Virus record (IMG/VR): IMGVR_UViG_3300047362_000404
Span: 1 to 41,673 of that record
Origin: a virus
DNA: 41,673 bases
Reading direction: 5' to 3' (one strand)
Under the pieces are notes generated by a model. It saw only the letters and a list, made by a program, of their open reading frames with translations, did not search any database and was not told the origin of the DNA. A program made the position numbers and the translations under genes. Of this stretch, positions 1 to 19,446 are shown in pieces (positions within the stretch are counted from its first letter, which is position 1; the number at the start of each line of letters is the position of its first letter).

Positions 1-1
1 T

Positions 2-1351
2 TCAGAGACGGATCACTACTACATCGGTATAGGCAAATCGGACAAGTTCGGTGACGCAGACGTAGTGGTCCCACCAGTGGATTCCCCGCAAGAAGAACGT
101 GAGTTTAGACATAATCTGCAATCAATAAAAAAGGTAGAGGGTGCGATCATGGTCGCCCGTCGAGTTAATTGGGCAACGGGTACTAAGTACCACGGTTGGG
201 ACGACTCGACTTCACCAAGTGATGTTACCCCATTCTATGTACTCACAGATGCGAAGGAAGTTTACATCTGTCTGTCGCCAGGTATCGATGATACTGGAGT
301 GCATCAACCATCGACGGTAGAACCGAACTATGGGTTCCACGCACCGATCAGTACAGTGTCGGATCCAAACGATCCAATGTACTTGCAACGACTGCACTGG
401 GAACCGTTCACTACCACTGACGGTTACACATGGAAGTTTTGTTACTCTCTACGTCCAGAGAACATCTACCAGTTCCTATCATCCAACCACATCCCTGTAC
501 AACCTTTAGAAGACACTCTGGCTGGCGGAGACTCTATTGAAGACTTACAATGGCATGTAGCGGATCGTGCGGTCGGTGGAGAAATCATTAGTGTTCAGGT
601 CACCGATGGTGGTAGTGGATATGATCCATCAAACCCACCTTCAGTTTTGATCGAAGGTAATGGTTATGGTTGTGTTGGTACTGCTGTAGTATCTGGAGAC
701 AAGGTCGTGAGAATCGATATGGTGTCCGGTACAAACGAAAACACACAGACCACTTATGGATCTGGATATGGTTGGGCAGAAGTATCTATCGAAGGTAACG
801 CAGAAGCTCGTGCGATCATTACGTCCAGTGAGGGTCTAGGTAAAGATGCTGCAATTGATTTGAAAACAAGTTCAGTAATGATGAACATAAAACCAAATGG
901 AGATGAGAACGGACGATTCGTCGTAGAGAATTCTTTCCGTCAGATTGGTGTCATCAAGAATCCTATGCAACCAAACGGAACCGATCCATACACGGAAGGT
1001 GGTGCTAAATGTCTATCCAGTTTCACTCTGACCAATGGTCACGGAGAATCTTCTCCATTCCACACTGGTGAGTCGGTAACTAGTTTCCCAGGCGGTGCAC
1101 TGGCATACGTTGATCAGTCCATTGGGAACACGGTATTCTATCACCAGAACTCAACAACAGGGTTCGAAGAATTCGCTGTGGGTGAGTCGGTATCTCAAAC
1201 AGGTGTGGTCGTAACCGCATCAATCGACTTCGTCACACGCACATACGGCATCGACCGATACACAGGAGAGGTTCTTTACATTGAGAATCGTCCACGTATT
1301 CGACGCGATGCAGAACAACAAGAAGATATTAAGGTAGTCATCACAGTTTAG
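2..1351 (+). CDS. 8: Baseplate wedge subunit gp8 (5' truncated by window edge)
   Basis: Wedge protein of the T4-type baseplate, which forms the hexagonal rim around the hub. The frame is open from base 2, so the true start lies upstream; a GTG at 65 is internal. Seen: an N-terminal HYYIGIGKSD-type segment, then VTPFYVLTDAKEVYICL and GYTWKFCYSLRPENIYQFL, both characteristic of gp8, and a C-terminus TGEVLYIENRPRIRR followed by acidic/beta residues as in other gp8 proteins. At least 449 residues are present, longer than T4 gp8 (334). The extra length includes a Gly-rich beta insert (VTDGGSGYDPSNPP region, about residues 195-290 of the visible part) of a kind common in marine phage virion proteins. 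It sits directly upstream of the DUF4815 protein, consistent with a baseplate operon. The assignment is from remembered family motifs, not a database search. Confidence 0.85.
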   Translation, partial: SETDHYYIGIGKSDKFGDADVVVPPVDSPQEEREFRHNLQSIKKVEGAIMVARRVNWATGTKYHGWDDSTSPSDVTPFYVLTDAKEVYICLSPGIDDTGVHQPSTVEPNYGFHAPISTVSDPNDPMYLQRLHWEPFTTTDGYTWKFCYSLRPENIYQFLSSNHIPVQPLEDTLAGGDSIEDLQWHVADRAVGGEIISVQVTDGGSGYDPSNPPSVLIEGNGYGCVGTAVVSGDKVVRIDMVSGTNENTQTTYGSGYGWAEVSIEGNAEARAIITSSEGLGKDAAIDLKTSSVMMNIKPNGDENGRFVVENSFRQIGVIKNPMQPNGTDPYTEGGAKCLSSFTLTNGHGESSPFHTGESVTSFPGGALAYVDQSIGNTVFYHQNSTTGFEEFAVGESVSQTGVVVTASIDFVTRTYGIDRYTGEVLYIENRPRIRRDAEQQEDIKVVITV

Positions 1352-1359
1352 GATTAATT

Positions 1360-4300
1360 ATGTCTGATCAAGATTATTTAAAAGAAATAACTGCGTCCAC
1401 ATTCAAGGACGACTACCGCGACTTTTACGATGCAGATGATGGATACCACCGTATCTTATTCAGGGGTGGTCATGCCCTACAGGCACGTGAACTAATCGAA
1501 CTACAGACGATCATCCAATCTGAGATCGAACGTTTCGGTAGTAACATATTCAAAGAAGGTGCACTGGTAAATCCAGGCGGTGTCACTGTAGACAACAAAG
1601 TTGAGTTTGTCAAGATGACGGAGAGCAGTACTCTCCCTTCTTTAGATCAACTCCCTGCTGATCGTGAGGTCGAGAACCAAGACGGAGTCAAGGCAAAGGT
1701 TCTTGACATCGTGGGTAAGATCGTGTATGTTCAATACACCGATACTAAAAAGGGAAACAGTGATGGTGGATCACCTCGTTTCGTAACTGACGACAGACTA
1801 GACATCCTAGGTACGGTTGAAAGTTCTGGTCGTGCGGTTCGCGCTTCATTCGCAGAGGGTGACTACTTCGTACAAGGACACTTCGTCCACACAACAGAAA
1901 AGAGTTTCATGATCGATCCGGACGGATCGTTACCAGAACACGACGCGGTCGATATCGGTTTCCGCATCAAAGAAGTTCTAGTAACTTCATCGGAAGATGA
2001 GAGTCTCTACGACAACTCAGGTGCACAACCTAACGTTGGGGCGCCAGGCGCAGATCGATACAGGATCATCTTAGAACCAACTAAACGCACAGACATCACT
2101 AGTGATGAAAACTTTGTTTTCGTTGCACGTGTATTGAATGGTGTGGTGACCCGTGAGGTCACAAGTCACGATGGATACAATCGTATCAATAGGTTGCTTG
2201 CTCAACGCACCAAGGAAGAGTCTGGTGATTATGTTGCACAAGACTTTACCGCAGTCTTCGAAGACTATACCGACACCGATCTAATTCTGGATGTTTCTGA
2301 CGGAATCGCATACGTTGATGGATATCGATTAGATATCGGTCGTTCAGAGATAGTTGTTCCTAAGGCGCAGACAGTAAGACAAAAAGATCGAGAAGTCGTA
2401 TCCTCTTACTACGGTAACTGGGTTTATGTCGATGAAGAGAATGCCAACACTACAGGTTTCGGTGACCTATCAAGTTTCGGTGCAGTTACCATTAGAAACG
2501 ATCAAGGTCAACCAATCGGTGATGCGAACACTCGCGGTATCGAACAGGACGCATCAGGTTACCGACTATACATCTTCAATGTAAAGATGGGTGATGGTGC
2601 AACCTTCAGTCAAGCACAGAGTTTTGTCGATAAAGTAAATGGAGATCAAATCTATCTTGTTGACACTCACATCTATGGTACGATCAACAACAGTTTAATC
2701 TTCCCACTGCCTCAGACAAGTCCAGAAAGGAACAGCATCGCGACTGTGCAGTATGTGAAGACCGTTGCAAGAGTGAACCAACAACCAGATGGCACAGAGT
2801 TGACTCTCGGTGGGGTTGAACCACAGAACTGGGTTATCTCAGAAGTCGGTGGTGGCATATTAGATAAGGTCGCCGACAACTCAGGTAAGTTCACGGGGTT
2901 GGATGCAACTAGTACTTACAACGTTCTGACTTATGTCAATGAACCAAACGGAACATACCGTAAGAAGACACTGACAAGAAAGATCGACTTACAAATAACC
3001 ACAGATCACGGCCAATTAGAATTCGCTACGTCGGTCGAGACTTCAGTGGTTGACGGTTACGAACTCATTCAGATATTACAGGACGACGGTAGAGATGTCA
3101 CACACATGTATGAGATGGACGGCGGTCAACGAGATAACTTCTACGACTTCGTCTCCTTCAGATTAAAGGATGGGTTCTCTATACCAGACGGAGTCACTCT
3201 GTCATTTGACTTCGAACACTTTGTGCATGATGCAGGCGACTTCTTCTCTGTGACTTCATACTTAGGTGAGGACGCTGGTGACGAAGGTCTTGCATATGAG
3301 GACATTCCATCACACACATACGTCGACGGAACTACAGTATCACTACGTGACGTGATAGACTTCCGTCCATCACGTAGTACCGATGGTTCATTCCCAACAT
3401 TAAGTATACCACAGAACGCTTCAGGAATCAACCTAATCAATGTAAAATATTACGAACCGCGTATTGACATCTTAGTTGCTAACACTAAGGACAGATACGG
3501 TGATGTTGGTTTCGGTGAACTACAAGTCATTCAGGGTCAGTCAAGTGCAAACCCACGACCACCAGAAGTTCCAACTGGATCTCTACCACTATACATCTTC
3601 CGTCTGAATCCATACACGTTTAACTCTAGTGACGTGGTAATGGAGAAACAGACACACAAGCGATTCACTATGAAAGACATCGCTGCTATTGAAACTCGTG
3701 TAGATGATCTATATGAATTGACCACACTAAGTCTCCTAGAGTCCAACACGCAATCACTTACAGTTCTTGACGATCAAGGATCTGCGAGAACTAAGGCTGG
3801 ATTCATCGCGGACAACTTCACGTCGTTCAGTTTCTCTGACGTGAACAACCCAAATTACCGCGCCTCGGTCGAGACGGTCTCGGGTCTAATGAAACCATCC
3901 TTCCGTGAAAACCTTGTTAGGTTGAAACACGATGCGTCTCAGGGTAACTCAACTCGTACTGGAGACTACGCAACTCTACCATACACTCACGCCTCGTTCA
4001 TAACACAAGATGTGGCCACGAGTACAATGAACATTAACCCTTTCTCGGTCATCACACAAGAAGGTCATATCACACTATCACCATCAAGTGATGAGTGGGT
4101 GGAGACACAGACTCTGCCACCAATTATGCAAACGACAGTTCGTCGTTCAGTCCCTATCGATCTTGGATTCGAAGATCTTTGGTGGAATGGTATTACAAAC
4201 AACAATCGTCCACGCACACGTCAACAGTTTTCTGTTGAGTCAACGTCTCGTGCAATACAGGAGTTTGTCGGTGAACGTGTAGTCGACACAGAAGTCGTTC

Positions 4301-6237
4301 CATTCATGCGTTCGCGTAAGATCTCATTCAAGGCAGAAGGTCTACGTCCTAATACAAACGTCTTCGCATACTTCGGAAATCGCAACGTATCACAATGGTG
4401 TAAACTGTCAAACTCATTTGTTGAATACTCAACCACAGATTCTGAGGTAGGGTCAGAGTTCGCATCAGCAACTCAACACCCACAAGGAACTAGTCAGTTA
4501 GTTACTAACTCAGAGGGTGAGGTTTTCGGTGAGTTCTTCCTACCTAATACGGATGAGTTTAGATTCCGTACAGGGACACAAGACTTTGTGATATTGGATG
4601 CTGATATTGATACTACCACAAATCGACTATCAAGTCAACAACAGAGTGACGCTATGTCGTCATCGTCTGCGCCTTATACATCGACGGGATCTATCGAATC
4701 AATCCAACGAACTGTTAGAACCACTCGTGTGCCTCAACGCATTCGTGGTCGTCGTGACCCGCTTGCACAGTCGTTCTATGTCGATCCTTCGGAGAACCCT
4801 AACGGTATCTTCCTAACTAAGGTACGCGTTTACGTACAGAGCAAAGACTCTGTTATCCCGATGCAGGTACAAGTTCGTCCGGTAGAGAATGGCATACCAA
4901 CAACTACTATTATACCGGGCTCTGTCAAGTTTGTCAAGCCCGCCGACATAACTGTCGCACCTAGTAATGACATTTCGTCGATTCGCAGTACACCAACCGA
5001 GGTTGAGTTCGACGAACCTGTCTACTTGACTTCTGGTGAAGAATATGCTATAGTACTACTCGCAGAGTCAGTTGAGTATAATGTTTACGTCGCACAGACC
5101 TATGAAGAAATTCTTGGTGGTACTGAAGGTAAGGTATCGAAACAACCTTCTCTTGGTTCACTATTCATGTCACAGAGTGGTTCGACGTGGACTCCGGATC
5201 AAACCAAAGACCTAATGTTCGAATTAGAACGTGCAGAGTTTAATGCCTCTGGTGATGTTTATTTGGAGAACGCAATATTACCTTCGGTTTCTCTATCGTC
5301 CAACCCGTTCACTGCGATAAACTCTGCTGGTGGTTTTCAAGTATCTCAAGAAGGTCACGGTTTCTCTAAGGGAGACACAGTAACGATCTCAGGATCGTCG
5401 GGCGTTGATGTTGATGGTCAACACACGATTGATAGTGTAACTGCATTTGGATACTCTTTCACTGTCATTGGGTTAGATAGTAATCCGGCTGAAGGAACTT
5501 CCTTCGGTGGATCTTCTGTTGTTGCATCTCAGAACGTCGTGTTCGATGAGTTCACACCACAGATTTCAAACATCACACCTAACGGTACATCTATCGTGAG
5601 TAGTATTGAAAGATCGGCCGCGAAGTCTTATGGTGATGCTAGTGGAAGAAACGACTCTCGCCACTCATACCAGAAACGTGGTGACCAGTTGACCGAAGAC
5701 ACGTTCTTAAATCAACTTAACATTGCAGACTTCCCTTCCGCAATCGCGACAGCAGAGAACAATGTGGACACTAACAATCAACCAGAATCTAGTGTTGAGT
5801 TAAAGTTGAATCTAAAGACAAGTGACAGTAAAGTTTCTCCGATCATCGATCTACAGAGAACTTCAATCCTTGCTCTAGAGAACGTTATTGGTTCCGGTGA
5901 GGAAGCACAACACATTACAACACCTATCACGATTGATGAGTCTTCGGCAGGACTGAAGGTTCTTTTGGGTGCGAACCGTCCATCGGATGCATCGATAGAG
6001 GTTTACGTCAAGACTTCCGCAACAGACGAAGGACTTTCATCTGCACAGTGGATTGAGGCATTGGTCGACTCGGCCGTACCTTCGGATGAAAACGCGTCGG
6101 TCTTCCGTGAGTATGAGTACACGGTAGAAGCTGCGGACCCATTCACTGCATTCCAAGTGAAGGTGGTCATGAAGTCAACTAACTCATCTAAGGTGCCGAC
6201 AGTACGTGACCTACGAGTGATCGCATTGGCCGTATGA
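1360..6237 (+). CDS. Large DUF4815-type baseplate/tail structural protein, gp10-position
   Basis: Virion protein of 1625 residues, probably a baseplate wedge or fibre-attachment component. Seen: an N-terminal segment HALQARELIELQTIIQSEIE followed by RFGSNIFKEGALVNPGG (about residues 38-73), the hallmark of DUF4815 proteins in T4-like marine phages. Around residue 1131 there is RDPLAQSFYVDPSENPNGIF followed by EYAIVLLAESVEYNVYV, a second block I associate with the same proteins. At about residues 1310-1390 there is a small beta domain (GHGFSKGDTVTISG). The start ATG lies 8 bases after the gp8 stop, with a weak TAGGA upstream. In T4 this position holds gp9/gp10, but I see no clear gp9 or gp10 sequence, so the functional equivalence is inferred from position. 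It ends in a 4-base overlap with the next gene. Confidence 0.75.
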   Translation: MSDQDYLKEITASTFKDDYRDFYDADDGYHRILFRGGHALQARELIELQTIIQSEIERFGSNIFKEGALVNPGGVTVDNKVEFVKMTESSTLPSLDQLPADREVENQDGVKAKVLDIVGKIVYVQYTDTKKGNSDGGSPRFVTDDRLDILGTVESSGRAVRASFAEGDYFVQGHFVHTTEKSFMIDPDGSLPEHDAVDIGFRIKEVLVTSSEDESLYDNSGAQPNVGAPGADRYRIILEPTKRTDITSDENFVFVARVLNGVVTREVTSHDGYNRINRLLAQRTKEESGDYVAQDFTAVFEDYTDTDLILDVSDGIAYVDGYRLDIGRSEIVVPKAQTVRQKDREVVSSYYGNWVYVDEENANTTGFGDLSSFGAVTIRNDQGQPIGDANTRGIEQDASGYRLYIFNVKMGDGATFSQAQSFVDKVNGDQIYLVDTHIYGTINNSLIFPLPQTSPERNSIATVQYVKTVARVNQQPDGTELTLGGVEPQNWVISEVGGGILDKVADNSGKFTGLDATSTYNVLTYVNEPNGTYRKKTLTRKIDLQITTDHGQLEFATSVETSVVDGYELIQILQDDGRDVTHMYEMDGGQRDNFYDFVSFRLKDGFSIPDGVTLSFDFEHFVHDAGDFFSVTSYLGEDAGDEGLAYEDIPSHTYVDGTTVSLRDVIDFRPSRSTDGSFPTLSIPQNASGINLINVKYYEPRIDILVANTKDRYGDVGFGELQVIQGQSSANPRPPEVPTGSLPLYIFRLNPYTFNSSDVVMEKQTHKRFTMKDIAAIETRVDDLYELTTLSLLESNTQSLTVLDDQGSARTKAGFIADNFTSFSFSDVNNPNYRASVETVSGLMKPSFRENLVRLKHDASQGNSTRTGDYATLPYTHASFITQDVATSTMNINPFSVITQEGHITLSPSSDEWVETQTLPPIMQTTVRRSVPIDLGFEDLWWNGITNNNRPRTRQQFSVESTSRAIQEFVGERVVDTEVVPFMRSRKISFKAEGLRPNTNVFAYFGNRNVSQWCKLSNSFVEYSTTDSEVGSEFASATQHPQGTSQLVTNSEGEVFGEFFLPNTDEFRFRTGTQDFVILDADIDTTTNRLSSQQQSDAMSSSSAPYTSTGSIESIQRTVRTTRVPQRIRGRRDPLAQSFYVDPSENPNGIFLTKVRVYVQSKDSVIPMQVQVRPVENGIPTTTIIPGSVKFVKPADITVAPSNDISSIRSTPTEVEFDEPVYLTSGEEYAIVLLAESVEYNVYVAQTYEEILGGTEGKVSKQPSLGSLFMSQSGSTWTPDQTKDLMFELERAEFNASGDVYLENAILPSVSLSSNPFTAINSAGGFQVSQEGHGFSKGDTVTISGSSGVDVDGQHTIDSVTAFGYSFTVIGLDSNPAEGTSFGGSSVVASQNVVFDEFTPQISNITPNGTSIVSSIERSAAKSYGDASGRNDSRHSYQKRGDQLTEDTFLNQLNIADFPSAIATAENNVDTNNQPESSVELKLNLKTSDSKVSPIIDLQRTSILALENVIGSGEEAQHITTPITIDESSAGLKVLLGANRPSDASIEVYVKTSATDEGLSSAQWIEALVDSAVPSDENASVFREYEYTVEAADPFTAFQVKVVMKSTNSSKVPTVRDLRVIALAV

Positions 6238-6467
6238 TGAATAGATATAAAAAAGTAGAAGGACACACAAGTCTAGTAAGAGATGCAAGAACGGGAGCAA
6301 TCATCAACACTAACAGTTCGGAGATTGCAAGAGCGAGAAAAAGAAAAGAGGCAAAGAAACAAGAGGCGGAAAGACTCGATACGTTATCAAAAGAAGTCTC
6401 CTCATTACAGAGTGAGATTAGTGAGATAAAAGATTTGTTGGTTCGTCTAGTGGAGAATAAAGAATGA
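6234..6467 (+). CDS. Small basic coiled-coil protein, hypothetical
   Basis: A 77-residue hydrophilic protein starting MMNRYKKVEGHTSLVRDA, followed by a basic stretch (EIARARKRKEAKKQEAER) and a C-terminal heptad pattern (LSKEVSSLQSEISEIKDLLVRL) that predicts a short coiled coil. The ATG at 6234 overlaps the previous stop; ATG 6237 is an equally possible start. I recall similar small proteins beside the wedge genes of marine T4-like phages, but no function is known to me. Both ends overlap neighbouring genes in ATGA junctions, so it is almost certainly translated with the DUF4815 protein and the following fibre. It could be an assembly factor or a small virion part; nothing in the sequence decides this. 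Confidence 0.7.
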   Translation: MMNRYKKVEGHTSLVRDARTGAIINTNSSEIARARKRKEAKKQEAERLDTLSKEVSSLQSEISEIKDLLVRLVENKE

Positions 6468-8047
6468 CTGATACAATACAAACAGTACATCTCGCCGACA
6501 ATATCAACGCGGCGTTTGACAAGATCAACGAGAACTTCGAAGGTCTCACTGACGGGTCGATTGTGGTTCCACCACCATCGGACATTTCGATCGGTGACCT
6601 ACAAGATGTCACGCTTACTTCTCTTTCCAATGGAGAGGTATTGAAGTGGAATGGTTCTTCATGGACAAACCTACCGGACAGTGGATCTAGTAGCAATACG
6701 AACATCTCCACTGATAGTGATCTCAACCAATATATCACCAACTTACTAGACTCCTCGTTCTTTATTTCGGTCATCAACGAAGAGTACCTAGAACAATTCA
6801 ACATTACTACCGATGTCACATACACCGATTCGGATGTTCAAGCAAACGCCTCTGCTATATTCACACTTGAATCTCGTATCGATGCGACCGACTCTGGTAT
6901 TACCGTTCTGTCTCAGGCGATCATTGATACTCAAGCATCACTAGAAAATATTACATTAGGTGGTATCGATTCAGACTTACTTGCAGACGCAATCGCAAGT
7001 GCGAACTCTACAGTCATCTCACGCATCGATGCTAACAGTGATGGTATTACTTCTTTCGCTGGGGTCATTGATAGCGTAGAGAACAACATGTTGTTGAGAG
7101 ACTCAGCGACAAACGATCTGATAGAAATAAACACAACCGCTATCTCCTCGTTGACTTCTAGGATTAATGTGAACTCAGATGGTCTGAGTGTGGTCGTCGG
7201 TGATGTAACGGATCTATCACTTTCTCTTAACCAGTTAATCAGTGACGGTATCACTCTAACACCAGAACAAGTCACCGAAGCATTGGGTGGTGCATTAGAA
7301 TCACTAACGCTTCGTCTGGATGCGGACAGTGATAAACTGGTAATCGAAGCTGCAAAGGTTGTAGATCTTGAAACGGGTCTGACCGCACAAGAGAGCGATC
7401 TTGGTGTGCAGATCACCGCAGTATCTAATGCGCAATCTTCTCTAGTGTCTCGTACAGAGTTTGACTCTGCTGAAGGTAGAATTACCACACTCGCAGAAGA
7501 TATTGTTACCCTAAACAATCAAGTGGACGTTACAAACCCAGACGGCACTCTATCTACTGCGATCGCCGATGCAGAGAGCGAATTACGTGGAGAGATCACT
7601 ACAGTCGATGGTCGAATCACTTCAGTCCAAACATCGTTGACGAATACTCTTAATGCCAAGATCGACAGTGACATTGCGCTGGCGACCCAAACACTGACCG
7701 CTTTGATTGACTCGGCAGGTAATACCACATCGACGTGGGGTATTGATCTTGTTGCAGGATCAGAAGACAATCCTAAAGTCGCAGGTATCAAATTCGGTAA
7801 CGATGGTGACACGGCCGACTTCGCAATCACTACTGACACATTTAAGATCCTTCCAACAGACGGAACAGGCAATGGTACCGCTCCGTTCAGTGTTGTGGGT
7901 GGTGTGGTTGAAATGTCGGGTGCTAAGGTTACTGGAGATTTGGACGTGACTTCATCTGACACTACAGGATCTATGAACATTACGGGTAACCTAATTACTA
8001 TTAGTGATGGTTCTGGGAACCCAAGGGTGAAACTAGGTAAACTATAA
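6464..8047 (+). CDS. Tail-fibre-like structural protein with coiled coils
   Basis: A 527-residue fibre-type protein. Seen: an N-terminus TVHLADNINAAFDKINENFE typical of phage fibres that begin with a short helix; then a linker of the form LSNGEVLKWNGSSWTNLPD (about residues 55-73), a common fibre linker; then long Asp/Ser/Ala-rich heptad-like stretches predicting trimeric coiled coil; then a Gly-rich beta tail (about residues 440-527, ending in GSGNPRVKLGKL). This alternation is what trimeric fibres usually show. The ATG overlaps the upstream stop, with GGAG 5' of it. The stop overlaps the next ATG by one base (TAATG). Receptor or attachment role is inferred from composition only. Confidence 0.65.
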   Translation: MTDTIQTVHLADNINAAFDKINENFEGLTDGSIVVPPPSDISIGDLQDVTLTSLSNGEVLKWNGSSWTNLPDSGSSSNTNISTDSDLNQYITNLLDSSFFISVINEEYLEQFNITTDVTYTDSDVQANASAIFTLESRIDATDSGITVLSQAIIDTQASLENITLGGIDSDLLADAIASANSTVISRIDANSDGITSFAGVIDSVENNMLLRDSATNDLIEINTTAISSLTSRINVNSDGLSVVVGDVTDLSLSLNQLISDGITLTPEQVTEALGGALESLTLRLDADSDKLVIEAAKVVDLETGLTAQESDLGVQITAVSNAQSSLVSRTEFDSAEGRITTLAEDIVTLNNQVDVTNPDGTLSTAIADAESELRGEITTVDGRITSVQTSLTNTLNAKIDSDIALATQTLTALIDSAGNTTSTWGIDLVAGSEDNPKVAGIKFGNDGDTADFAITTDTFKILPTDGTGNGTAPFSVVGGVVEMSGAKVTGDLDVTSSDTTGSMNITGNLITISDGSGNPRVKLGKL

Positions 8048-8367
8048 TGAGTTATGGTTTAGAAGTCTATGACGTAGACGGGACATCGAAAGTCTTATCT
8101 CCAAATATGAGATTCGGTACGCTTCTTGATTTTGCAACTAATGTAAATTTAGCGCAAGGTCAAACTCCAACGATTCCGGAGTTTATCGATTTCCCTATGG
8201 AAATGACAGGTGTAAGTCCATCCACGGTGGCGATCGTAGAACTTTCCGATGGTGGGTGGACTATTAGTGCCGAGTACGATGAGAGATACGAATTCCAGTC
8301 TGATAGAATTAGAGTCAACGCTAGTGTCGTTGCTTTTTATGGCGACATTTACATACTAAGGTTTTAA
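8047..8367 (+). CDS. Small virion protein, fibre-head family (copy A of duplicated cassette)
   Basis: A 106-residue, beta-rich protein beginning MSYGLEVYDVDGTSKVL and ending VVAFYGDIYILRF. The same overall plan (MS-x-x-GL/F-x-V, a short polar turn, then alternating hydrophobic strands) appears at the N-termini of the proteins starting at 8370, 9595 and 9906, so these four look like one domain family. It is joined by a one-base overlap to the fibre before it and 2 bases to the fibre after it. No known function; it may be a free-standing version of the domain that caps or attaches the fibres. The similarity was judged by eye and is weak. Confidence 0.6.
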   Translation: MSYGLEVYDVDGTSKVLSPNMRFGTLLDFATNVNLAQGQTPTIPEFIDFPMEMTGVSPSTVAIVELSDGGWTISAEYDERYEFQSDRIRVNASVVAFYGDIYILRF

Positions 8368-8369
8368 TT

Positions 8370-9143
8370 ATGAGTTTTGGTCTACAAACATTCGATGCTT
8401 CAGGTAGGGTTCAGATAGATACTACTCGTTCCAGTGATTCTGGAATGATTGTTATTGATGCGGGAACTGCGTCTAGTGTATCTAATGTACCTTCGTCAGC
8501 AAGAGTGTTTGTCAACGTACAACCTTCTTCAGGTAATGTTGGATTTGTTGCACATTCTTACTCAGGTTCGACTGTGACTTTTTATGGGACATCAACTTCA
8601 GAGACGGGTCCGTTAGATCAAACGGTAGCAGTAAATTACATTATCGCCGCCCCAGCAAACACTCAGACATATTCTGGAAACGAGTATGCCCTACAGTGTT
8701 TAAATACAGACGGTGATGTTCTATTTGATAGTAGATACCTCAACGGAGATGGTGGCCTGGGACTATTGGGATACTCACAACCCCAACAACATAATGGAGA
8801 TCCATTTGCGTCAAATGGTTCTGGTGGATTTGGTGGAGGTCCAATAAACAATCTTATCACATCTGACCTGAATACATATGTTGATGTTGCAAATTGTTTT
8901 GTAGGATCCGTCGGGAATAATACAGGTAATAAGGTAAAGGGTAGATATATAGTCTTTGCAAATAACTTTTCCGCAAACTATAACTCTGTAGAGAGCAGAG
9001 GGTATAGGGAAGGTTTTGTTAATAGTGGCTATTTTGTAGGAAACATGACTGGAATTTATTATTGGAGACTAAGAGCCGGACCACAGTATTCGCACATAGC
9101 ACACCCAAATCCTTCTAACATTTTATATGGAGAACAAATATGA
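8370..9143 (+). CDS. Short fibre/adhesin-like protein (copy A)
   Basis: A 257-residue protein with an N-terminal beta domain (MSFGLQTFDASGRVQI) like its neighbours, a Ser/Thr-rich middle, and a Gly-rich segment NGSGGFGGGPINN (about residues 149-161). The distal part is rich in aromatic residues and Asn (YIVFANNFSANYNSVESRGY, then GYFVGNMTGIYYW). The Asn-Tyr/Gly-Asn flavour faintly resembles the tetrapeptide repeats of the protein at 9906 but no register is visible. Codons are AT-rich with AGA/AGG arginines, unlike the conserved head genes, suggesting a different origin. It overlaps the chaperone-like gene by 4 bases, an arrangement typical of a fibre followed by its assembly factor. Confidence 0.6.
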   Translation: MSFGLQTFDASGRVQIDTTRSSDSGMIVIDAGTASSVSNVPSSARVFVNVQPSSGNVGFVAHSYSGSTVTFYGTSTSETGPLDQTVAVNYIIAAPANTQTYSGNEYALQCLNTDGDVLFDSRYLNGDGGLGLLGYSQPQQHNGDPFASNGSGGFGGGPINNLITSDLNTYVDVANCFVGSVGNNTGNKVKGRYIVFANNFSANYNSVESRGYREGFVNSGYFVGNMTGIYYWRLRAGPQYSHIAHPNPSNILYGEQI

Positions 9144-9586
9144 TAGTCTCGTATATTGCTTATTGCAATCCATACGGTGAGATCGTCCGAATGGGTTTCG
9201 GTAAAGCGTCAAACAATCCACCAGAAGGTGTTGACTCTGAAACCGGACAGACCATTGTACACATCACTGGGGAACTTTCAGTGTCTAGAGATCAGTTTGT
9301 TCGAACCACTGTCTGGGACGGAGAGTCTTGGGTAAGTCGTCCGGACAAACCAAACCGTTTCGCTCAGTGGGACGGAAGTGAATGGACATGGGATCCAAAA
9401 GATCTTCTTGAGGAATTACGCCGAGAAAGAAATGTAAAACTAGGTGAATGTGATTGGACTCGAATGGACGACAATAGTTTATCAAACGCACAACGAGAAG
9501 AGTGGGCTGAATATCGTCAAACGTTACGCGACATCACAGAAAACTATGACTCATTGGATTCAGTAGTTTGGCCTGACAGTCCATAG
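9140..9586 (+). CDS. Phage tail assembly chaperone-like protein (copy A)
   Basis: A 148-residue protein. The C-terminal block LRRERNVKLGECDWTRMDD followed by LSNAQREEWAEYRQTLRDIT (about residues 92-133) matches the pattern RNxxLxxCDWTQ...LS...WxxYRQxLRDI of the Phage_tail_APC-type family, often encoded just downstream of fibre genes. The N-terminal half carries a small domain with SYIAYCNPYGEIVRMG and WDGESWV/WDGSEWTWD motifs. A role in folding or assembling the adjacent fibre is inferred from family and context. The C-terminal block recurs in the gene at 13418, which follows the next fibre gene, so this is one of two paralogues. The ATG overlaps the fibre stop by 4 bases. Confidence 0.75.
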   Translation: MIVSYIAYCNPYGEIVRMGFGKASNNPPEGVDSETGQTIVHITGELSVSRDQFVRTTVWDGESWVSRPDKPNRFAQWDGSEWTWDPKDLLEELRRERNVKLGECDWTRMDDNSLSNAQREEWAEYRQTLRDITENYDSLDSVVWPDSP

Positions 9587-9594
9587 GAGATTCC

Positions 9595-9906
9595 ATGTCT
9601 GACCTATTTGGTATAGAAGTACGTGGACCAAACAACTCAACGCCTGTACTATCAAGTAGGCTTAGATCTTCGAATGTTGTATTGTTTTCTGCTTTTAGTT
9701 TAGAAGGAAATGACTCTTTGACATTTGTATGTCCGGACGCTAATGATTCCACAAAGGTGGCACTAACGCTTATGGGCCCGGACAGTCCATTTCCAGTTTA
9801 TCTTCGTGGCGTTGTTGTTTCTGAAAAAACCACCAGTGGGTTTACCCTAACGAATTACGATCAGGCAACAAGGTCTGGTCGAGTTTTAGCATTTAGGATT
9901 TCATAA
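9595..9906 (+). CDS. Small virion protein, fibre-head family (copy B)
   Basis: A 103-residue protein beginning MSDLFGIEVRGPNNSTPVL and ending RSGRVLAFRIS. Length, beta-strand pattern and end resemble the 106-residue protein at 8047, and its start resembles the N-terminus of the next gene (MSDVYGFKITGEDTSPFTVL). SD-like AGGAGA lies 8-9 bases before the ATG. The stop overlaps the next ATG by one base (TAATG), the same junction seen before copy A. Function unknown; it occupies the same cassette position as the 8047 gene. Confidence 0.6.
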   Translation: MSDLFGIEVRGPNNSTPVLSSRLRSSNVVLFSAFSLEGNDSLTFVCPDANDSTKVALTLMGPDSPFPVYLRGVVVSEKTTSGFTLTNYDQATRSGRVLAFRIS

Positions 9907-12900
9907 TGTCTGACGTGTATGGTTTTAAAATCACTGGTGAGGACACCTCTCCATTCACTGTACTTGATACTGAACTAGATACTCTAAGTTTATCTGTCAC
10001 AGAAACAGGTAGAGCGAGTTCTATAACACTAGATTATCCACTACAACCTTCAGATTTTATTTTTGTTAAAAGTCCTTCGGCTCCTGGCAATGCAAATTTT
10101 ACTAGTCAGAGTCAGTATCCAGCCCCCAACACCTCATTATATTTTTCGGGCCCTCAGTTCTATTATATGAGTACCGACAGGTCCGGTACGAATCACATTG
10201 TAACATTTCATGGCAACGCCTATGATTATTATGCAGACCCCTACAACCCTAGAGGACTGCCGAGACTTGCTTTTGCTGATAGGTGGGATGTTGAGTTTGA
10301 TTATTTTATTGTTCGCAGATCTACAGATATTGTATCTCAGGGAATTGGACGTGATGATAATTATGGAATACAGATAAGAAGCAAATACTGGACCGAAGAG
10401 AATCCAATATTGTCGTATGATTCTAGGTCTGCAATTTCTAATGATACCTTTACTGTTGAAACTTATTTGCCCCCAGCGACTCAAGTATATCAGGGTGGGA
10501 GTTCACAATCTGGTTACTCTACTCTAAACTTTACTTCGGGATGTTATGTAAACATCAATTGGACCGATCGAGTGCACTCTAATACACTGAATGAACGTGA
10601 CATTGGATTTATTCAAGCAATAGGTATGAATTCAACTAGCGCATGGGCTGTTACTGGTTTTGTGGGTATGGAAGATGGTGGTCGATTCTTTCTTGATGGA
10701 AACAGTTCCGCAATCCTAGCGGTTAAACTAAGAGACTTAAACAATCTTTATAATTCCAATGATCAATCAACCAGTGTGGGTGATGACGATGATACTACAA
10801 CCGCCCCATCGGATGACGACGTAGACACAAACTATACTGGATCTCTCTCGTATGTTGCAGGTAATACCTTCACCGAAGGTGGTACAATTCAGTTTGACGC
10901 CTCAGTGAATACACCCAACGTAGGATATCACACTAAAATATTCAGGGTCACAGGCAGTGGCAATGATTTAGATTCTATCACTCACACGTTTACTGGTACT
11001 TCGTCGGCAGAGAGAATTAGTATAACAGCAAGTAATGACTCTGTCAATGATAGTCGTACAGTTTCTTATATGCGGACGTCGAACTATATAGGAAATTATG
11101 TTACCAGTAGAAGTTCATCTTATACCAGAGGATTCTTAGGAAACTTCATTGGTAATTATGGTCGTAATTTTGCTGGCAATTATAATAGGACTGGTACATA
11201 CTCTAGAAATTTTTCTGGACAATATAGTAGGAGTAGTTCTTACTCTAGAACTATACCTTCCAGTAGAAATTTTGAGGGTAACTATAATAGAACTCGTGTT
11301 TCTTCTTATGCACGAGGAGTTCCCTATATTAGGAATAGTGTTTTTACTAGAACTCGACTGTCATATAGTTCCGGCACCTTCACGGGAAATTACTCTAGAA
11401 CATTAAATATACCAACAGCATATAGTAGGGACGTGGACTATATTGGTAACTACCAACGAACTAGATCTACCACTTATTACGTAGATATAGGGGGTGGAGA
11501 CTGGTTCGAGTTTTATGTCGCTATCGCTGCACCTTCTTACATAGGGGATTATACTAGAAATTTTATAGGTAATTATGCTAGATATCGTGCACAAACATTT
11601 ACTGCGGGAGTGTCTTACACAGGTAATTATTCTCGAAACTATGCTGGTAATTTTTCAGGTAACTACACTAGGGCCGCTAACTATTCTCGTAACTTTACTG
11701 GAAACTTTACCGGCAATTATGGTAGAACATTATCGTCCTCTCGTACCTTTACTGGAGACTTTGTTGGTGAATACTCAAGAAACATTGAGTATAACAGAAA
11801 TAGAATAGGATCTGGTGGTACTGTCACGTCAACACGAACATCTACAGGTGGAGGAGGTCAAGTCACAGACCATTTCATGTATGGTTCAAAGTCTGGATTT
11901 AGAGCTGGTTGGAGATATACAATATCCACTGGAGAAATTAAGATCTACAAACTGGGTTCTGAAATTGCTTCCGGTACGGGTAATACCAATACAACAGAAA
12001 TTGTTTTCAATGGTGTAACTTATCAACGTGGAACTTTCCAGTCCGGTTCATCTAACAGTATTCACCAGTACTATGGTGTCACATATAATGAAGGAACCAC
12101 ACCTTATGTTGGTGACTTCACAACTGCGACTACCTATACCGGAAACTATGTAAGCGCTTCTTCATATAACAGAACCAGAATAACGAACAGTACTGGAGAT
12201 TTCACAAGAACATCAACATATAATAGAACTAGGGCAGCAGACAGAAGTCAAAGTTATCTTGGTACAGCAGAGTATCTAAGAACCTCTACCCGAACTAGAA
12301 CCAGTTCATATACTAGAGATAGAGCTGGGGCTGAATCCAGAACTGTTTACTATGAAGGAAACTATAACAGGACCAGAGTCGCTAACTATACTAGGGGAAT
12401 ATACGCTGAGTTCACCAGAACTTCCAGTAGAACACTCTACTTTGCGGGGAACACACCAACACCCACCGATTACACAAGAACTCGAAACGTTTCTTATGAA
12501 GGTAACTTCACTGGAAATTATAATAGAGATTTATTTTATACTGGTGGCGTTGACTACACTAGAGGGTTTGTGGGAAACTTTGGGAGAACGAGATCCAGTA
12601 GTTATAGTAGAACATCCGCATACAATAGGACATTGACATCCAATCGCGTTCGTGTTGGTGATTATAATAGAGAGTTGACTTACAACCGAACCAGAACAAG
12701 CACCTATACTAGAGATCGTCAGAGTGCAGCGGGAGAAAGTTATACTCGAAACTTCAATGGAAACTTTGTCGGTAACTATATCGGTAACTACACAAGGTCT
12801 TCTTCCGGTACAAGTTCTGGAGTATCTGAAGTCAAGTGGAGGGGTGAACAGTTTGTCATGGAACTCCGTGTGGGTTCTGCTGGAAATTCATTGACTCTAG

Positions 12901-13403
12901 GGCAGAACGATCCAGACTCTATCATACTTGATTCCAAAACATTTACATTGTTTGATAATGATGCGGGTACTGTCCTCGCGACCACGGGAGTCACTGTATC
13001 AGACACAGACACCACCCATAAACTTATTGTCGATTTCAAGTCTGACGGGAATCAGGTTGCTAGTGGAAGAGTCACAACACTCGCTAGTTCGGTTTCAGCG
13101 ATCATGGCCGGACCATTCGACCTCACCGATGGTGTAAATGAAATTACGGTAAATAATGCACCACAAGTAGTTTCGGGATCGACTGTTACTTACTATATAC
13201 ATGTTAACAATAACGGAACTTCTGGGTACTGGGCCCCAGGCGGTCAGTATACCGTAACACGAGTTCCTTCTAATGACAATGATGGTCAGGATCCACCACC
13301 AGATGGAAGTCCAACCGACAGTGATGGAACAACTCCAGGCGGTCCTTCTATACCGGACGATGATAATCCACCCGCACCGGACTCAGGCTCAGATTTCAAA
13401 TAG
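9906..13403 (+). CDS. Tyr/Arg/Gly/Asn tetrapeptide-repeat fibre protein (copy B, 1165 aa)
   Basis: A giant putative fibre. Seen: an N-terminal fibre-head domain (MSDVYGFKITGEDTS); a beta-rich region to about residue 300; an acidic linker (VGDDDDTTTAPSDDD, about 293-307); a domain with NTFTEGGTIQFDASVN (about 319-334) resembling extracellular beta-sandwich modules; a degenerate repeat at residues 387-633 of units such as IGNY, GRNF, AGNY, TRTR and YSRT; a globular insertion at 634-733; a second repeat block at 734-964; a beta domain to about 1110; and a Pro/Asp/Gly/Ser tail. Arg codons are mostly AGA/AGG and Tyr often TAT, in contrast to the paralogous repeat gene at 14026. A chaperone-like gene follows, as after copy A. 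An adhesin role is inferred; no enzymatic motif was recognised. Confidence 0.75.
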   Translation: MSDVYGFKITGEDTSPFTVLDTELDTLSLSVTETGRASSITLDYPLQPSDFIFVKSPSAPGNANFTSQSQYPAPNTSLYFSGPQFYYMSTDRSGTNHIVTFHGNAYDYYADPYNPRGLPRLAFADRWDVEFDYFIVRRSTDIVSQGIGRDDNYGIQIRSKYWTEENPILSYDSRSAISNDTFTVETYLPPATQVYQGGSSQSGYSTLNFTSGCYVNINWTDRVHSNTLNERDIGFIQAIGMNSTSAWAVTGFVGMEDGGRFFLDGNSSAILAVKLRDLNNLYNSNDQSTSVGDDDDTTTAPSDDDVDTNYTGSLSYVAGNTFTEGGTIQFDASVNTPNVGYHTKIFRVTGSGNDLDSITHTFTGTSSAERISITASNDSVNDSRTVSYMRTSNYIGNYVTSRSSSYTRGFLGNFIGNYGRNFAGNYNRTGTYSRNFSGQYSRSSSYSRTIPSSRNFEGNYNRTRVSSYARGVPYIRNSVFTRTRLSYSSGTFTGNYSRTLNIPTAYSRDVDYIGNYQRTRSTTYYVDIGGGDWFEFYVAIAAPSYIGDYTRNFIGNYARYRAQTFTAGVSYTGNYSRNYAGNFSGNYTRAANYSRNFTGNFTGNYGRTLSSSRTFTGDFVGEYSRNIEYNRNRIGSGGTVTSTRTSTGGGGQVTDHFMYGSKSGFRAGWRYTISTGEIKIYKLGSEIASGTGNTNTTEIVFNGVTYQRGTFQSGSSNSIHQYYGVTYNEGTTPYVGDFTTATTYTGNYVSASSYNRTRITNSTGDFTRTSTYNRTRAADRSQSYLGTAEYLRTSTRTRTSSYTRDRAGAESRTVYYEGNYNRTRVANYTRGIYAEFTRTSSRTLYFAGNTPTPTDYTRTRNVSYEGNFTGNYNRDLFYTGGVDYTRGFVGNFGRTRSSSYSRTSAYNRTLTSNRVRVGDYNRELTYNRTRTSTYTRDRQSAAGESYTRNFNGNFVGNYIGNYTRSSSGTSSGVSEVKWRGEQFVMELRVGSAGNSLTLGQNDPDSIILDSKTFTLFDNDAGTVLATTGVTVSDTDTTHKLIVDFKSDGNQVASGRVTTLASSVSAIMAGPFDLTDGVNEITVNNAPQVVSGSTVTYYIHVNNNGTSGYWAPGGQYTVTRVPSNDNDGQDPPPDGSPTDSDGTTPGGPSIPDDDNPPAPDSGSDFK
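11064..11804 (+). repeat. Tetrapeptide repeat block 1 of the 1165-aa protein
   Basis: Amino-acid repeat of about 12 bases per unit, residues 387-633. Typical units are xGNY, xRNF, xRTR and SSYS. The register of aromatic residues occasionally shifts by two residues (for example at GNYNRTGTYSRNF), and a 27-residue non-repeat stretch (around YYVDIGGGDWFEFYVAIAAP) interrupts it. At the DNA level copies are diverged, so this is a protein repeat rather than a satellite. Confidence 0.85.
12105..12797 (+). repeat. Tetrapeptide repeat block 2 of the 1165-aa protein
   Basis: Residues 734-964, resuming at YVGDF after the inserted globular domain. Units include YTGN, YNRT, RTSS, YTRD and FVGN. It ends with FNGNFVGNYIGNYTR, which is close to the commonest unit of the larger paralogue. 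It contains more R-T-R units than block 1. Confidence 0.85.
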
Positions 13404-13417
13404 AGATAAATAAAATC

Positions 13418-13900
13418 ATGGATACTTTAAAATACATAGCATATATAAAACCCACCACTGGAAAAATAGTAAGACTTACTATACCCCAATACAAGATAGA
13501 TTCTGAAGGGTTGGGCCCAGACGGAAACTTCGTGGTCCATGTAACGTCCGCCAATCTACCAGAAAACTGTGATGATTTGGGATACTTTATGGACAACTAT
13601 TGGTATGATACTGGTGAACACAAGTTTGTTTTCGTGGGGTTGCCTTGCAATAGTCATGCGACTTGGAGTCTAGAGAAAGGATGGTGGGATTGGGATCCCG
13701 AACTTGTAAAAGTGGATATCCGCAAAACAAGAAATGCATTGTTGAACGCCTGTGATTGGACTCAACAATTAGATGTACCACTAAGTGAAGCGAAACTTCA
13801 AGAATGGGTGACATACCGTCAACAACTTCGTGACATTACAAAGAATATTTCAGATGACATTTTATCTGTAAATGATGTGGTTTGGCCAGTACAACCATAA
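13418..13900 (+). CDS. Phage tail assembly chaperone-like protein (copy B)
   Basis: A 160-residue paralogue of the protein at 9140. The N-terminus YIAYIKPTTGKIVRL parallels SYIAYCNPYGEIVRM; the middle has an aromatic cluster (WSLEKGWWDWDPELV); and the C-terminal block RKTRNALLNACDWTQQLD with LSEAKLQEWVTYRQQLRDIT (about residues 107-146) and final VVWPVQP mirror copy A almost position for position. Thus each fibre in this region has its own chaperone-like partner. It starts 14 bases after the repeat protein with no strong ribosome-binding site, suggesting translational coupling. It is the last gene of its transcription unit, since a terminator follows. Confidence 0.75.
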   Translation: MDTLKYIAYIKPTTGKIVRLTIPQYKIDSEGLGPDGNFVVHVTSANLPENCDDLGYFMDNYWYDTGEHKFVFVGLPCNSHATWSLEKGWWDWDPELVKVDIRKTRNALLNACDWTQQLDVPLSEAKLQEWVTYRQQLRDITKNISDDILSVNDVVWPVQP

Positions 13901-13927
13901 ACAAAAAACAATTTGAGAACTATTGCG

Positions 13928-13964
13928 AAAAAGTGTGGTTACTTCGGTTCCCGCACTTTTTTTT
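13928..13964 (+). terminator. Rho-independent terminator after the fibre/chaperone cassette
   Basis: Inverted repeat with outer arms AAAAAGTG (13928-13935) and CACTTTTT (13954-13961), extended inward by T-G, G-C and G-C pairs and an A-T/C-G pair closing a TTCG loop (13943-13946), followed by a T run. It separates the 6-14 kb fibre operon from the giant repeat gene. Confidence 0.8.
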
Positions 13965-13966
13965 CT

Positions 13967-13974
13967 TATAAATA
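13967..13974 (+). promoter_or_regulatory. T4-type late promoter TATAAATA
   Basis: Perfect match to the T4 late promoter core (recognised in T4 by the gp55/gp33/gp45 system), 52 bases upstream of the GTG of the giant repeat gene and directly after a terminator. It should drive that gene as its own late unit. Confidence 0.85.
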
Positions 13975-14025: not shown

Positions 14026-17000
14026 GTGTCAGCATCTAGTATACCACTAAAACTTCAAAATGCTAATGGTGACCTACAGGAATTCACTCCATCGGATGAG
14101 ATGTATCTATCCTTTGCAGTGGGACAAGCATTAGTTGCGGCCGCTTCTAATGACGTTGGTAATATCAGTTTAACTGATGGCCAATCAATCGGTTCGTTTG
14201 TAGATTCTTACTACAATGAAATATCTGGCACCCACCCTGCTTCACAAATAACGGGTGCCTCAGTGACCACCACTCTGAAGCAAGTGAGTGGCCCAGCAGA
14301 CGAATCCGGTGCAGACTTTGTCCGCCCAGTAGGTTATTACGACGTTGATCCAAACCCAGGCTTCTACGAAATGGTAGATGGGGATATGGACAACCTAGCA
14401 GGTCGTGTTCTGTCTAACTTAGTACAGAACGACTATATCGGTACTTTCAAACTGTCCGCTACTCAACCAAGTCCAGACTATACAAAGTTTATTGACTCTG
14501 TATTCTCTGACACTCATGGTAATGGTAGCGCAGGTACCGTAGTAACAAACTATCACATTTGGATGCGTACTTCTATGGCGGCAGTTGCTCCAGTTCGTCC
14601 AGTAGCGACAAGCTACGACGGTTCTGGTTTCAACGGTCTACGTGAAATGACGGATGCGCAGATTCAGTACACACTGGGTCAACGTATTAAGTCAATGCGT
14701 GCTACGTCAGGAGCGATTGGTTCATACCAGTTACGTTCCACAGCACAAGGCGCACCGACAGTCCCAGGCTCATGGTTGCCTGTAGGTACTGCACAGAACA
14801 CACGTCGAACTCCAGTTGATGTTGCATACGCAAGAACTCGCGTATCTTCATACAACCGTGCACGTGTTTCTGCATACACTCGTACTCGCGTATCTTCATA
14901 CACGCGTAATAGTGTAAATACATTTAGTCGTACCTTTGTAGGAGACTACACTGGTGCATATTCACGCGACTTCGTAGGTAACTACTCGCGTGACTTTGTT
15001 GGGAACTACTCGCGTACTCGCCCATCATCGTACTCAGGTACATATGCAAGAACTCGCGTATCATCGTTTGCACGTACTCGTTTAACAGCGTTTACTGGAT
15101 ACTTTGCGGGAACTTACTCACGCGCACGTGTTTCAGTTTATACACGTAACCGTATAACACCATTCACTGGTACATTCTCACGTAACCGTGTTTCAACATA
15201 CACTCGTGGTCGTGTATCATCTTACGCCGGTACTTATTCTCGTAACCGCGTTTCTTCATACGTTGCAGACTATACACGCAACCGTGTTTCAACATATTCT
15301 GGAACATATTCGGGCACTTACTCCCGTCTACGTGTTTCTGCTTATTCTGGAACATACTCGCGTAACCGTGTTTCATCTTATGCTGGAACATATACGCGCA
15401 CACGTGTATCTACTTACGCAACTGACTTTACCCGCACCCGTGAAGAGAACTTCGCAGGGACTTACACTGGTTACTATACTGGCGTATTCTCTCGTGCTCG
15501 TGTATCAACATATACGCGTAACCGTGTAACAGGTTTCGCAGGTAACTTCATTGGTAACTACTCTCGCAACTTCCAAGGTAACTATTCACGTAACTTCGTG
15601 GGTAACTACTCTCGTGGATTTGCTGGAGATTACGTAGGTAACTACTCTCGCGTATCAACACGTACATCAACTCGCACACGTTACAGTGCTTACGCAAGAA
15701 CACGCATCACTAACTATGTTGGTGACTTTGCTCGTGATCGCGTCACTAACTTTGCGGGTAACTTTGTGGGCAACTATGCTCGCACCTTCGTAGGAAACTA
15801 CGGTGGTAACTTTATTGGAAACTACGCTCGTGACTTCGTTGGAAACTTCGTTGGAAACTACGCTCGCGCATATGTAGGTAACTACTCTCGCGGATTCGTA
15901 GGTAACTACGGTCGTAACTTCCTTGGAAACTTTGTCGGAAACTACAGTCGTAACTTCCTTGGTGACTTCACCGGAAACTACGCTCGTGGTTTCGTCGGTG
16001 ACTTCGTTGGAGATTTCGTAGGTAACTACGCACGTACTTCAACTCGTACATCGACTCGCACACGTTACTCTGCATATGCTCGTACTCGCGCAACGAACTA
16101 CACTCGCAACCGTGGTTCTGCTTACGCTCGTACATCTACTCGTACTCGTTACAGTGCATACGCAAGAACTCGTGCAACAAACTATACAAGAACTCGTGGT
16201 TCAGCTTACGCACGTACTCGTATCACTAACTACGTTGGTGACTTCGCGCGTACATCTACTCGTAGCAGACCATCTACGTTCTCTTATGCACGTACCCTAT
16301 ACTACGCAGGTGACTTCGTAGGTAACTATGGTCGTACTCGTGTAACAAACTATACTCGTGCTTCAGCGGTAGGTGTAACCTATACAGGTAACTACACGCG
16401 TAACCTATACTACGTTGGTAACTATGCTCGTGGATATGCAGGCAACTTCGTGGGTAACTACACACGTAACCGTGCATTCTCATACGTAGGTAACTACGCT
16501 CGTAACCGTGCATTCTCATATGTCGGTAACTACACACGTACTCGTGCGACGAACTATACGCGAACATCAACCAACACTGGTGCATATACTCGTGCCCGTG
16601 GTGCATCGTATGTTGGTAACTATAGTCGTAACGTAGCATACACTGGTAACTTCACACGATCTACGTCATCTACTCGTGTTTCTATTGCGGCCAACCCAGG
16701 CGGTGGTGTTTACCTCTCAGGTAAAGGTGGTGAAACATACTGGGGATGGAACGGATATTCAAACCAAATTGAAATTAAAGACCGCCTTCATGGTAATATC
16801 AACATCACAAGCGGCGTGTCTAGTACCACAGATATGGTTGTGGCCCAAGGTTTCCGATACTATCGTGGTGCGCTCCACCCAAGTTACACCGGGCAATACA
16901 AACGATATTATCTTATCCGCACAGCTATCGCCGATACTGAATATACTGGTAACTTCTCGGGGACAACATATTACACTCGTAACTCAGCCAACACTGCTAC

Positions 17001-18984: not shown

Positions 18985-19446
18985 ATGAGTTATAGACGTT
19001 GGATGGACAACGCATTCTGGGAAACAGAAGAGAAGAAAGAACTAAACTGTATCCTAGAAATGGAAGATGATATGGGTCGTGTCACTCGTCAACAGATGTT
19101 GTTGGCAAGGCAGGATCGTGATGGAAATACCAACGAGTTGTTTTCGGAAGTTGTGGATGCGCTTGGTGAAGAGTTGATCGATAAGGAAACTATCGATCGA
19201 GTCGAACGCAAAGCTGCGGAAGCGGAAGAAGAGAAACAACGTGATTTGGAACATCAAAAGGCTAGGAAACTTGAAAAACTGTTCAACTACAAACTAGAAG
19301 CGTTTGAGGTTGAGGAGATTAAGAACTCTAAAAACCGGAAGTTAAAGGCAAAATTGCGTCGTGCAAAATCTAAGATTGAAGTAGATATGTACTCAATCAT
19401 GATTCTACAAGACCAACTAGAGGCCGAGACAGATGGAAAAGAGTAA
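18985..19446 (+). CDS. Hypothetical charged helical protein
   Basis: A 153-residue, Glu/Lys-rich protein (SYRRWMDNAFWETEEKKELN at the N-terminus; long charged helix AAEAEEEKQRDLEHQKARKL at about residues 73-92). It predicts a largely helical, partly coiled-coil structure without membrane segments or recognised motifs. ATG 18985 is chosen because TGGAG at 18971-18975 is suitably placed. No perfect late promoter box lies in the 114-base gap upstream, so its transcription start is unclear. The 3' end overlaps the glycosyltransferase gene by 14 bases, placing it in one operon with the two enzyme genes. Function unknown. Confidence 0.7.
   Translation: MSYRRWMDNAFWETEEKKELNCILEMEDDMGRVTRQQMLLARQDRDGNTNELFSEVVDALGEELIDKETIDRVERKAAEAEEEKQRDLEHQKARKLEKLFNYKLEAFEVEEIKNSKNRKLKAKLRRAKSKIEVDMYSIMILQDQLEAETDGKE

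Follow-up and report, generated by a model that had tools for sequence, protein, structure and literature searches.

Two three-gene tail fibre cassettes stand side by side in the virus genome analysed here, and this arrangement raises the question of whether the second was copied in place from the first or reached the locus ready made. An earlier note on this DNA had favoured tandem duplication, after which the receptor-binding part was replaced, giving two alternative or co-assembled adhesins, each with a dedicated chaperone. Our analysis leads to a different answer: the two cassettes are probably ready-made units of a kind exchanged among ocean phages, and copying in place is not supported. 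The window, that is, the whole stretch analysed, is a 41.7-kb virus record in IMG/VR whose closest named record is Phage C48C1 (Kyanoviridae). C48C1 (contig label L003) has the same flanking genes and a single cassette of 112 + 340 + 152 aa. Both cassettes of the window, A (sA-fA-cA, 8047-9586) and B (sB-fB-cB, 9595-13900), have the six ORFs in the order and with the coordinates and lengths first reported. The genes and signals of the locus are as follows.

1360-6237, + strand: VrlC-like baseplate protein, 1625 aa (phrog_358, E=0), at the upstream edge of the host-recognition cluster
6464-8047, + strand: f0, tail fibre of 527 aa with a Phage_Tail_Tip C-terminal domain (PF09327, E=2e-7; phrog_2589 tail protein)
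8047-8367, + strand: sA, small fibre-tip protein, 106 aa (ORF list)
8370-9143, + strand: fA, short tip fibre of 257 aa with two YGLxV..FDSR-type modules
9140-9586, + strand: cA, tail fibre assembly chaperone, 148 aa (PF16778, E=3e-17)
9390-9586, + strand: conserved 3' block of cA, approximate swap joint, where DNA identity to contig L015 recovers
9595-9906, + strand: sB, small fibre-tip protein, 103 aa, predicted beta-sandwich (ORF list; AlphaFold2)
9906-13403, + strand: fB, long fibre, 1165 aa (ORF list)
13418-13900, + strand: cB, tail fibre assembly chaperone, 160 aa (PF16778, E=2e-15)
13927-13974, + strand: terminator-like hairpin with U run, then T4-type late promoter TATAAATA at 13967, between cB and fC
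14026-18870, + strand: fC, giant repeat fibre, 1614 aa, adjoining the cassettes outside the region that the earlier note considered

The VrlC-like protein is matched in tblastn by proteins named VrlC in P-HM2, P-HM1 and Salmonella phage heyday, and the head-tail adaptor and head closure genes are located at 30320-31972. The cassettes thus lie between VrlC and the neck genes, as the genes of a host-recognition cluster do. From the VrlC-like gene through a 77-aa ORF, f0 and both cassettes, the genes form a single packed run with intergenic gaps of -4 to +14 nt, in which f0 directly precedes cassette A. The earliest clear break of this run is found 3' of cB, where the hairpin (fold of -16.1 kcal/mol, z -2.8) is followed by TATAAATA. 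The window has 9 copies of this promoter sequence where 1.45 are expected, none of them in positions 1-13966; at the junction between A and B, neither a late-promoter match nor a terminator has been found. Further downstream, two genes 3' of fC (19433-20874), one with a weak glycosyltransferase-like match and one hydroxylase-like by eye, are 74-100% conserved in relatives despite the variable fibres. At 22660-30206, proteins of 1825 and 665 aa carry coiled-coil-like A/E/D-rich repeats and DSLTEIV..FQ modules, and are possibly further fibres.

The degree of kinship between the two cassettes differs from gene to gene. For the chaperones, homology is clear: cA and cB are ~35% identical, with a local score of 204, where 1000 shuffles reach at most 64, and both are members of Phage_tail_APC (PF16778; 62.6 and 56.9 bits, gathering cut-off 26.6). 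The CDWT..YRQ.LRDIT..VVWP block, to which the earlier note had drawn attention, is indeed shared by the pair, but alone it gives no sign of recent duplication, since it is the conserved C-terminal part of the whole APC family. Pairwise alignment left the relations of the s and f proteins unsettled (fA/fB N-termini: score 58, shuffled maximum 53; sA/sB: an unconvincing p of ~0.04), so profile comparison was used. The profiles connect fB to an fA-like family (L012/L038/L055) with 96% probability in the N part and 98% in the middle part, and this family to the window's fA with 68-79%. By these profiles, the heads of fA and fB are homologous via intermediates. For sA and sB, the profile probability is 95-96%, yet it covers only 23-24 columns, i.e., the N-terminal YGxEV...VLS..R motif, and the resemblance appears marginal. 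The MS-x-x-G start said to be common to the small proteins and the fibres is present in a loose form (MSYG, MSFG, MSDLFG, MSDVYG). Among PDB sequences, no convincing relatives of s, f, f0, fB or fC have been found, the matches being at chance level.

To see how the cassettes are distributed, we have mapped 80 viral contigs sharing the VrlC C-terminus (labels Lnnn denote the contigs compared with the window), many of which are fragments, so that second cassettes may lie elsewhere in those genomes. Most contigs that can be read throughout have one cassette in the slot between f0 and fC, and at least eight cassette types occupy it. Two cassettes are found in the window group, L005 (end not reached), L012, L092, L093, L094 and L069 (truncated); in all these loci the first cassette is variable and the second is always of the B type. 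Each half also occurs alone, A-type in five contigs (L038, L054, L059, L083, L084) and B-type in four (L017, L020, L027, L028). In addition, B-type cassettes stand at a second site, between f0' and a gp6-like gene, in L046, L059, L095 and L118; f0' is another fibre, similar to f0 at its C-terminus, whose gene lies upstream of the gp6-like one. B-type s-f-c genes are further present in small phages of different gene content (L107, L109-L112, L115, L116, L120). That is, the same module sits in unrelated phage backbones, in line with Mantel tests over 35 loci, which give correlations of 0.96 for s-f, 0.88 for s-c and 0.89 for f-c, and 0.12-0.17 against the backbone.

Over the same 35 loci, the N-terminal part of the chaperone covaries with its own fibre (r=0.90), while the correlation drops to 0.44 for the C-terminal block; the proposal that each cassette has a dedicated chaperone agrees with this pattern. 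The exchange itself can be seen in DNA identity. Compared with L015, the window shows 80-85% identity up to ~8000; the value falls to ~35-52% over sA, fA and most of cA (0.41 at 9100-9299), and is back to 0.79 at 9400-9599, the end of cA. This profile reads as a swap of cassette A with its joint in the conserved 3' APC block of the chaperone. Against L006 and L045 the relation is inverted, cassette A being 58/79/86% identical (s/f/c) and the flanking proteins 48-49% (44-49% against L006). Overall, the three genes of a cassette travel together; each cassette can come or go without the other, and cassettes replace one another across a joint in the chaperone 3' block. The cassette site is a swap zone within the known host-recognition cluster.

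Several irregular loci have also been observed. In L093 (reverse complement, 8737-9132), cassette A is a lone chaperone with a new N-terminus and neither s nor f, which looks like decay or a partial swap. L036, L044, L072 and L074 have an extra gene of ~300 aa (MFYVLSSHN...) between f0 and the cassette, by eye a possible glycosyltransferase. In L030 (16645-18089), the tip fibre is in two overlapping ORFs, probably through a frameshift or an assembly error. The chaperone loci of Melnitz and CRP-804 were considered as known cassettes and rejected, the fibres there being unrelated.

The next question is what each cassette does. In the small unrelated phages listed above, the preceding fibre carries the B-type s module as its C-terminal domain, and inspection by eye places a similar module at the end of the preceding protein in L009. 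With such fusions in unrelated phages, s is best read as a detachable fibre-tip domain. The AlphaFold2 model of sB (mean pLDDT 75) has weak fold matches in Foldseek to the Pam1 tailspike receptor-binding domain and an R-pyocin fibre (best E 0.03 in PDB and 0.003 in BFVD); the model of fA is poor (pLDDT 43). We suggest that s would attach to the C-terminal end of a long fibre, that f would form the adhesin tip, and that c would fold f. As for the long fibre served, f0' accompanies 11 of 11 long-B cassettes, tandem and second-site ones together, and 4 of 19 lineages without them (Fisher p=5e-5, where lineages are counted that are not independent and no relatedness correction is made). The B-short single genomes have no f0' at that position. 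Cassette A probably serves f0. Since long-B is found only with f0', and directly after f0' in some phages, the repeat-bearing cassette B probably serves f0'. The link between f0' and B is not obligatory, as C48C1 has f0' together with a single non-B cassette.

The contrast in length between fA and fB is real, and its cause is an added C-terminal domain holding an inserted repeat array. The parts of fB and of the neighbouring fC are as follows.

9906-10805, + strand: fB head, aa 1-300, homologous to repeat-free fibres
10857-11063, + strand: fB split domain, first part, aa 318-386, contiguous with the second part in relatives
11100-11822, + strand: fB outgoing repeat arm, aa 399-639, 241 aa
11823-12119, + strand: fB tip island, aa 640-738, hypervariable
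12120-12812, + strand: fB return repeat arm, aa 739-969, 231 aa
12801-13280, + strand: fB split domain, second part, and following region, aa 966-1125 (score 122-139, shuffled maximum 78-83)
14830-16674, + strand: fC outgoing repeat arm, aa 269-883, 615 aa
16675-16962, + strand: fC tip island, aa 884-979, the fastest-changing part
16963-18816, + strand: fC return repeat arm, aa 980-1597, 618 aa, mirror-paired with the outgoing arm

The fB head aligns with the fibres of L027, L017 and L028 with scores of 240-305 (shuffled maximum 76-87). Behind it, a domain that is unbroken in L017, L020, L027 and L028 is split at about aa 386-966 by a Tyr/Arg/Gly repeat array, so the extra length of fB comes from an array inserted in a domain continuous in these four relatives. 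In L094, which is without the tryptophan motif used for cutting the sequences, the boundary of the split is approximate. A Calx-beta identity of the split domain, considered by eye, has no support from Pfam.

The arrays are symmetrical. The array-bearing fibres examined have one main non-repeat island near the middle, with the exceptions of the fC of C48C1 (several) and of L074 (none detected). In 19 proteins, fC included, with arms of 233-671 residues, the island lies at fraction 0.502 (sd 0.013), and the lengths of outgoing and return arms correlate with r=0.992. The symmetry extends to the residues. When the smoothed difference between GNY-type and RxR-type motifs along the outgoing arm is compared with the mirrored return arm, the correlation is -0.73 to -0.84 in most fC (outliers: L056 at -0.53, L044 at -0.40 before register fitting, L060 at +0.25 until shifted), while parallel, unmirrored comparison gives a mean of about zero. 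One residue register stands out in each fC, with a score of 0.19-0.26 against 0.11-0.15 for the next. Among the 611 pairs of the window fC, Tyr-Tyr occurs 51 times (10.7 expected), Arg-Gly 47 and 33 times (13.5 and 7.8 expected), Arg-Phe 27 and 16 times (6.7 and 4.7 expected), and Arg-Arg never (11.5 expected). The pairing code may be read as Arg opposite Phe, Gly or Ser and Tyr opposite Tyr, never Arg-Arg.

A hairpin search in fC pairs aa 268-856 with 1003-1591, i.e., 589 consecutive pairs, at a score of 68.4, where 40 octamer shuffles reach 9.6 at most. This protein had been inspected before the scoring was fixed, so it is not an independent case, and the other proteins are partly independent. 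The fC of L074 gives a hairpin of 593 residues. In that of C48C1 (L003 13012-23055, 3347 aa), the paired segments are for the most part nested; several islands are added between them, chiefly in the return arm, which holds extra domains, and the protein may be a decorated hairpin. Insertions and deletions are mirrored as well: the comparison with L012 shows a difference of 28 aa at 872 matched by one of equal size at the mirror of 867, those with L049 and L093 show 60 aa near 328-340 matched at the mirror of 358, and that with L059 shows pairs of 12 aa. Most of these mirrored indels are multiples of four residues. The excess of coupled substitutions could come partly from regional rate differences.

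For the fB arms, strict-matrix local alignment was uninformative, and windowed and register tests were used instead. Pairing in fB is piecewise (402-496 with 856-950; 547-631 with 746-830). Close to the mirror diagonal, all nine fB proteins show more pairing than expected (0.28-0.73, expectation 0.18-0.37), with the non-reversed control at chance. The hairpin score of the window fB is 11.9 (shuffled maximum 4.6), and its own return arm is the best partner, the next reaching 9.4; in some relatives the pairing is weak (L121, 4.6 against a null of 3.5; L065, low). Equal arms with mirror-complementary residues are thus a strong feature of fC and a moderate one of fB.

Between the arms, the islands change fastest. 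The fC island is 57% identical to that of L010, with 96-99% for the arms and N domain, and the fB island is 25% identical to that of L012, with 66% for the head and 84% for the C domain. As the least conserved part, at a mid-chain position, the island would suit a distal receptor-binding domain. The array of fB and fC may then be an out-and-back stalk of equal and complementary arms (Arg opposite Phe or Gly, Tyr opposite Tyr). With such arms, the chain would be expected to close up into a long antiparallel beta ribbon whose two chain ends lie at the base, and the fast-evolving island would be placed at the far tip. The pairing pattern is evident in the sequences examined; for the ribbon and its receptor role, we rely on what that pattern suggests.

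How far do other explanations account for the same data? Chaperone homology, the same gene order, adjacency and fibre-head homology are all what one would expect if one cassette had been duplicated in tandem and its receptor-binding part then replaced. On the other hand, the AU test rejects A and B of the window lineage as a single clade (p=0.0036), and two wider A + B constraints are also rejected (p=0.0009 and 0.026). In the chaperone tree, all B-types group together (88/86), and the repeat-bearing B do so at 99/94 with second-locus copies included; the B-type chaperones thus go with copies that stand alone, at the other locus or in unrelated phages. With whole-cassette exchange seen directly and with each half found by itself in relatives, an arrangement the earlier note had itself named as fatal to its proposal, we regard local duplication as highly improbable. 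A very ancient duplication may lie behind the whole cassette family.

If the cassettes arrived as units, A and B could still be alternative adhesins of the same f0, either carried by separate particles or in competition for a single docking site, and the position of both cassettes 3' of f0 and the related N-termini of the s modules would fit this. We consider it rather unlikely, as long-B always comes with f0', directly after it in some phages, and as the A/B junction shows neither late promoter nor terminator. Since such signals are not found there, the two cassettes are probably made together, so that of the two options first offered, co-assembly is likelier than alternative expression; we prefer, as an inference, a two-fibre model with A on f0 and B on f0'. 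The arrays might likewise be ordinary low-complexity or beta-solenoid stalks, with symmetry and pairing as by-products of repeat duplication at the DNA level. The fC gene does contain tandem DNA repeats with 12-, 24-, 36- and 48-nt periods, and the arrays have no solved relative. This explanation predicts neither the opposite repeat types at mirror positions in most fC, nor a single register across 589 residues, nor the absence of Arg-Arg pairs, nor equal indels at mirror positions, and the signal is lost on reversing the return arm; we find it quite unlikely. Overall, we give a probability of roughly 0.7 to the joint reading in which s-f-c cassettes are exchanged, A would serve f0 and B f0', and fB and fC would have out-and-back stalks.

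It is on balance probable, from sequence analysis, that these proteins represent an undescribed fibre architecture: a single chain forming a ribbon of up to ~600 residue pairs (~200 nm if extended), with a pairing code, mirrored insertions and a hypervariable receptor-binding tip, the fB stalk being inserted in a loop of an older domain. The putative hairpin fibre has no Pfam or PHROGs match at a meaningful score and no PDB sequence match, and the fC N domain has no match in the bacterial and archaeal genomes searched. In the literature on hairpin or ribbon tail fibres and on C48C1, of which coverage was partial, nothing relevant was found, and an earlier description may exist. The s-f-c unit and the chaperone-end joint show, gene by gene, the exchange of attachment machinery in uncultivated marine myoviruses. 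The repeat fibres suggest an unusual route to a very long fibre, with a readable pairing code and compensating insertions on opposite arms. The out-and-back model could explain why such long proteins have equal arms around one variable domain, and these fibres may offer a simple natural model for long protein ribbons.

Parts of this picture have known counterparts. Pelagimyophages and cyanomyophages have a host-recognition cluster, a variable island between VrlC and the neck genes containing tail fibres, whose layout the window follows; in the available part of that study, the island is treated as a whole, and nothing was found there on the s-f-c unit and its two sites, on a joint in the chaperone or on hairpin fibres (PMC7029224). 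The Alteromonas phages A5, V22 and P24 share a tail fibre and cognate chaperone module common to distantly related phages, by its description an exchanged module like those of the window, unlike which no s-f-c tandem pair was found in the part of that report available (PMC10579305). No Alteromonas phage is among the 19 records matched by cA. Fibre loci of Pectobacterium tailocins, which are bacterial particles with different fibres and not phages like the window, are exchanged by homologous recombination with neighbouring loci conserved (PMC13195805). In T2 and PP01 (gp37-gp38), a small separate tip protein, and in T4 gp38, a chaperone, each works with the distal fibre; the polyglycine sandwich of the T2 tip adhesin differs from the predicted beta-sandwich of sB, and no sequence relation between these systems has been found (PMC12892980). 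Two or more receptor-binding proteins per virion occur in Sf14 (PMC11821841), CBA120 (PMC8825819) and Ackermannviridae (PMC8432352), where the proteins differ from those of the window and Sf14 is without a Mu-type chaperone homologue (PMC11821841).

Exchange of fibre-chaperone modules, recombination at fibre loci and multiple fibres per virion are therefore already known. For the proposed hairpin fibre, the nearest likeness is in other folds. In SMC coiled-coil arms and CdiA filaments, the chain runs out and returns, with a mid-chain domain at the distal end; these are built from a coiled coil or an FHA-repeat helix, whereas fB and fC would be built from a Tyr/Arg/Gly ladder of period four.
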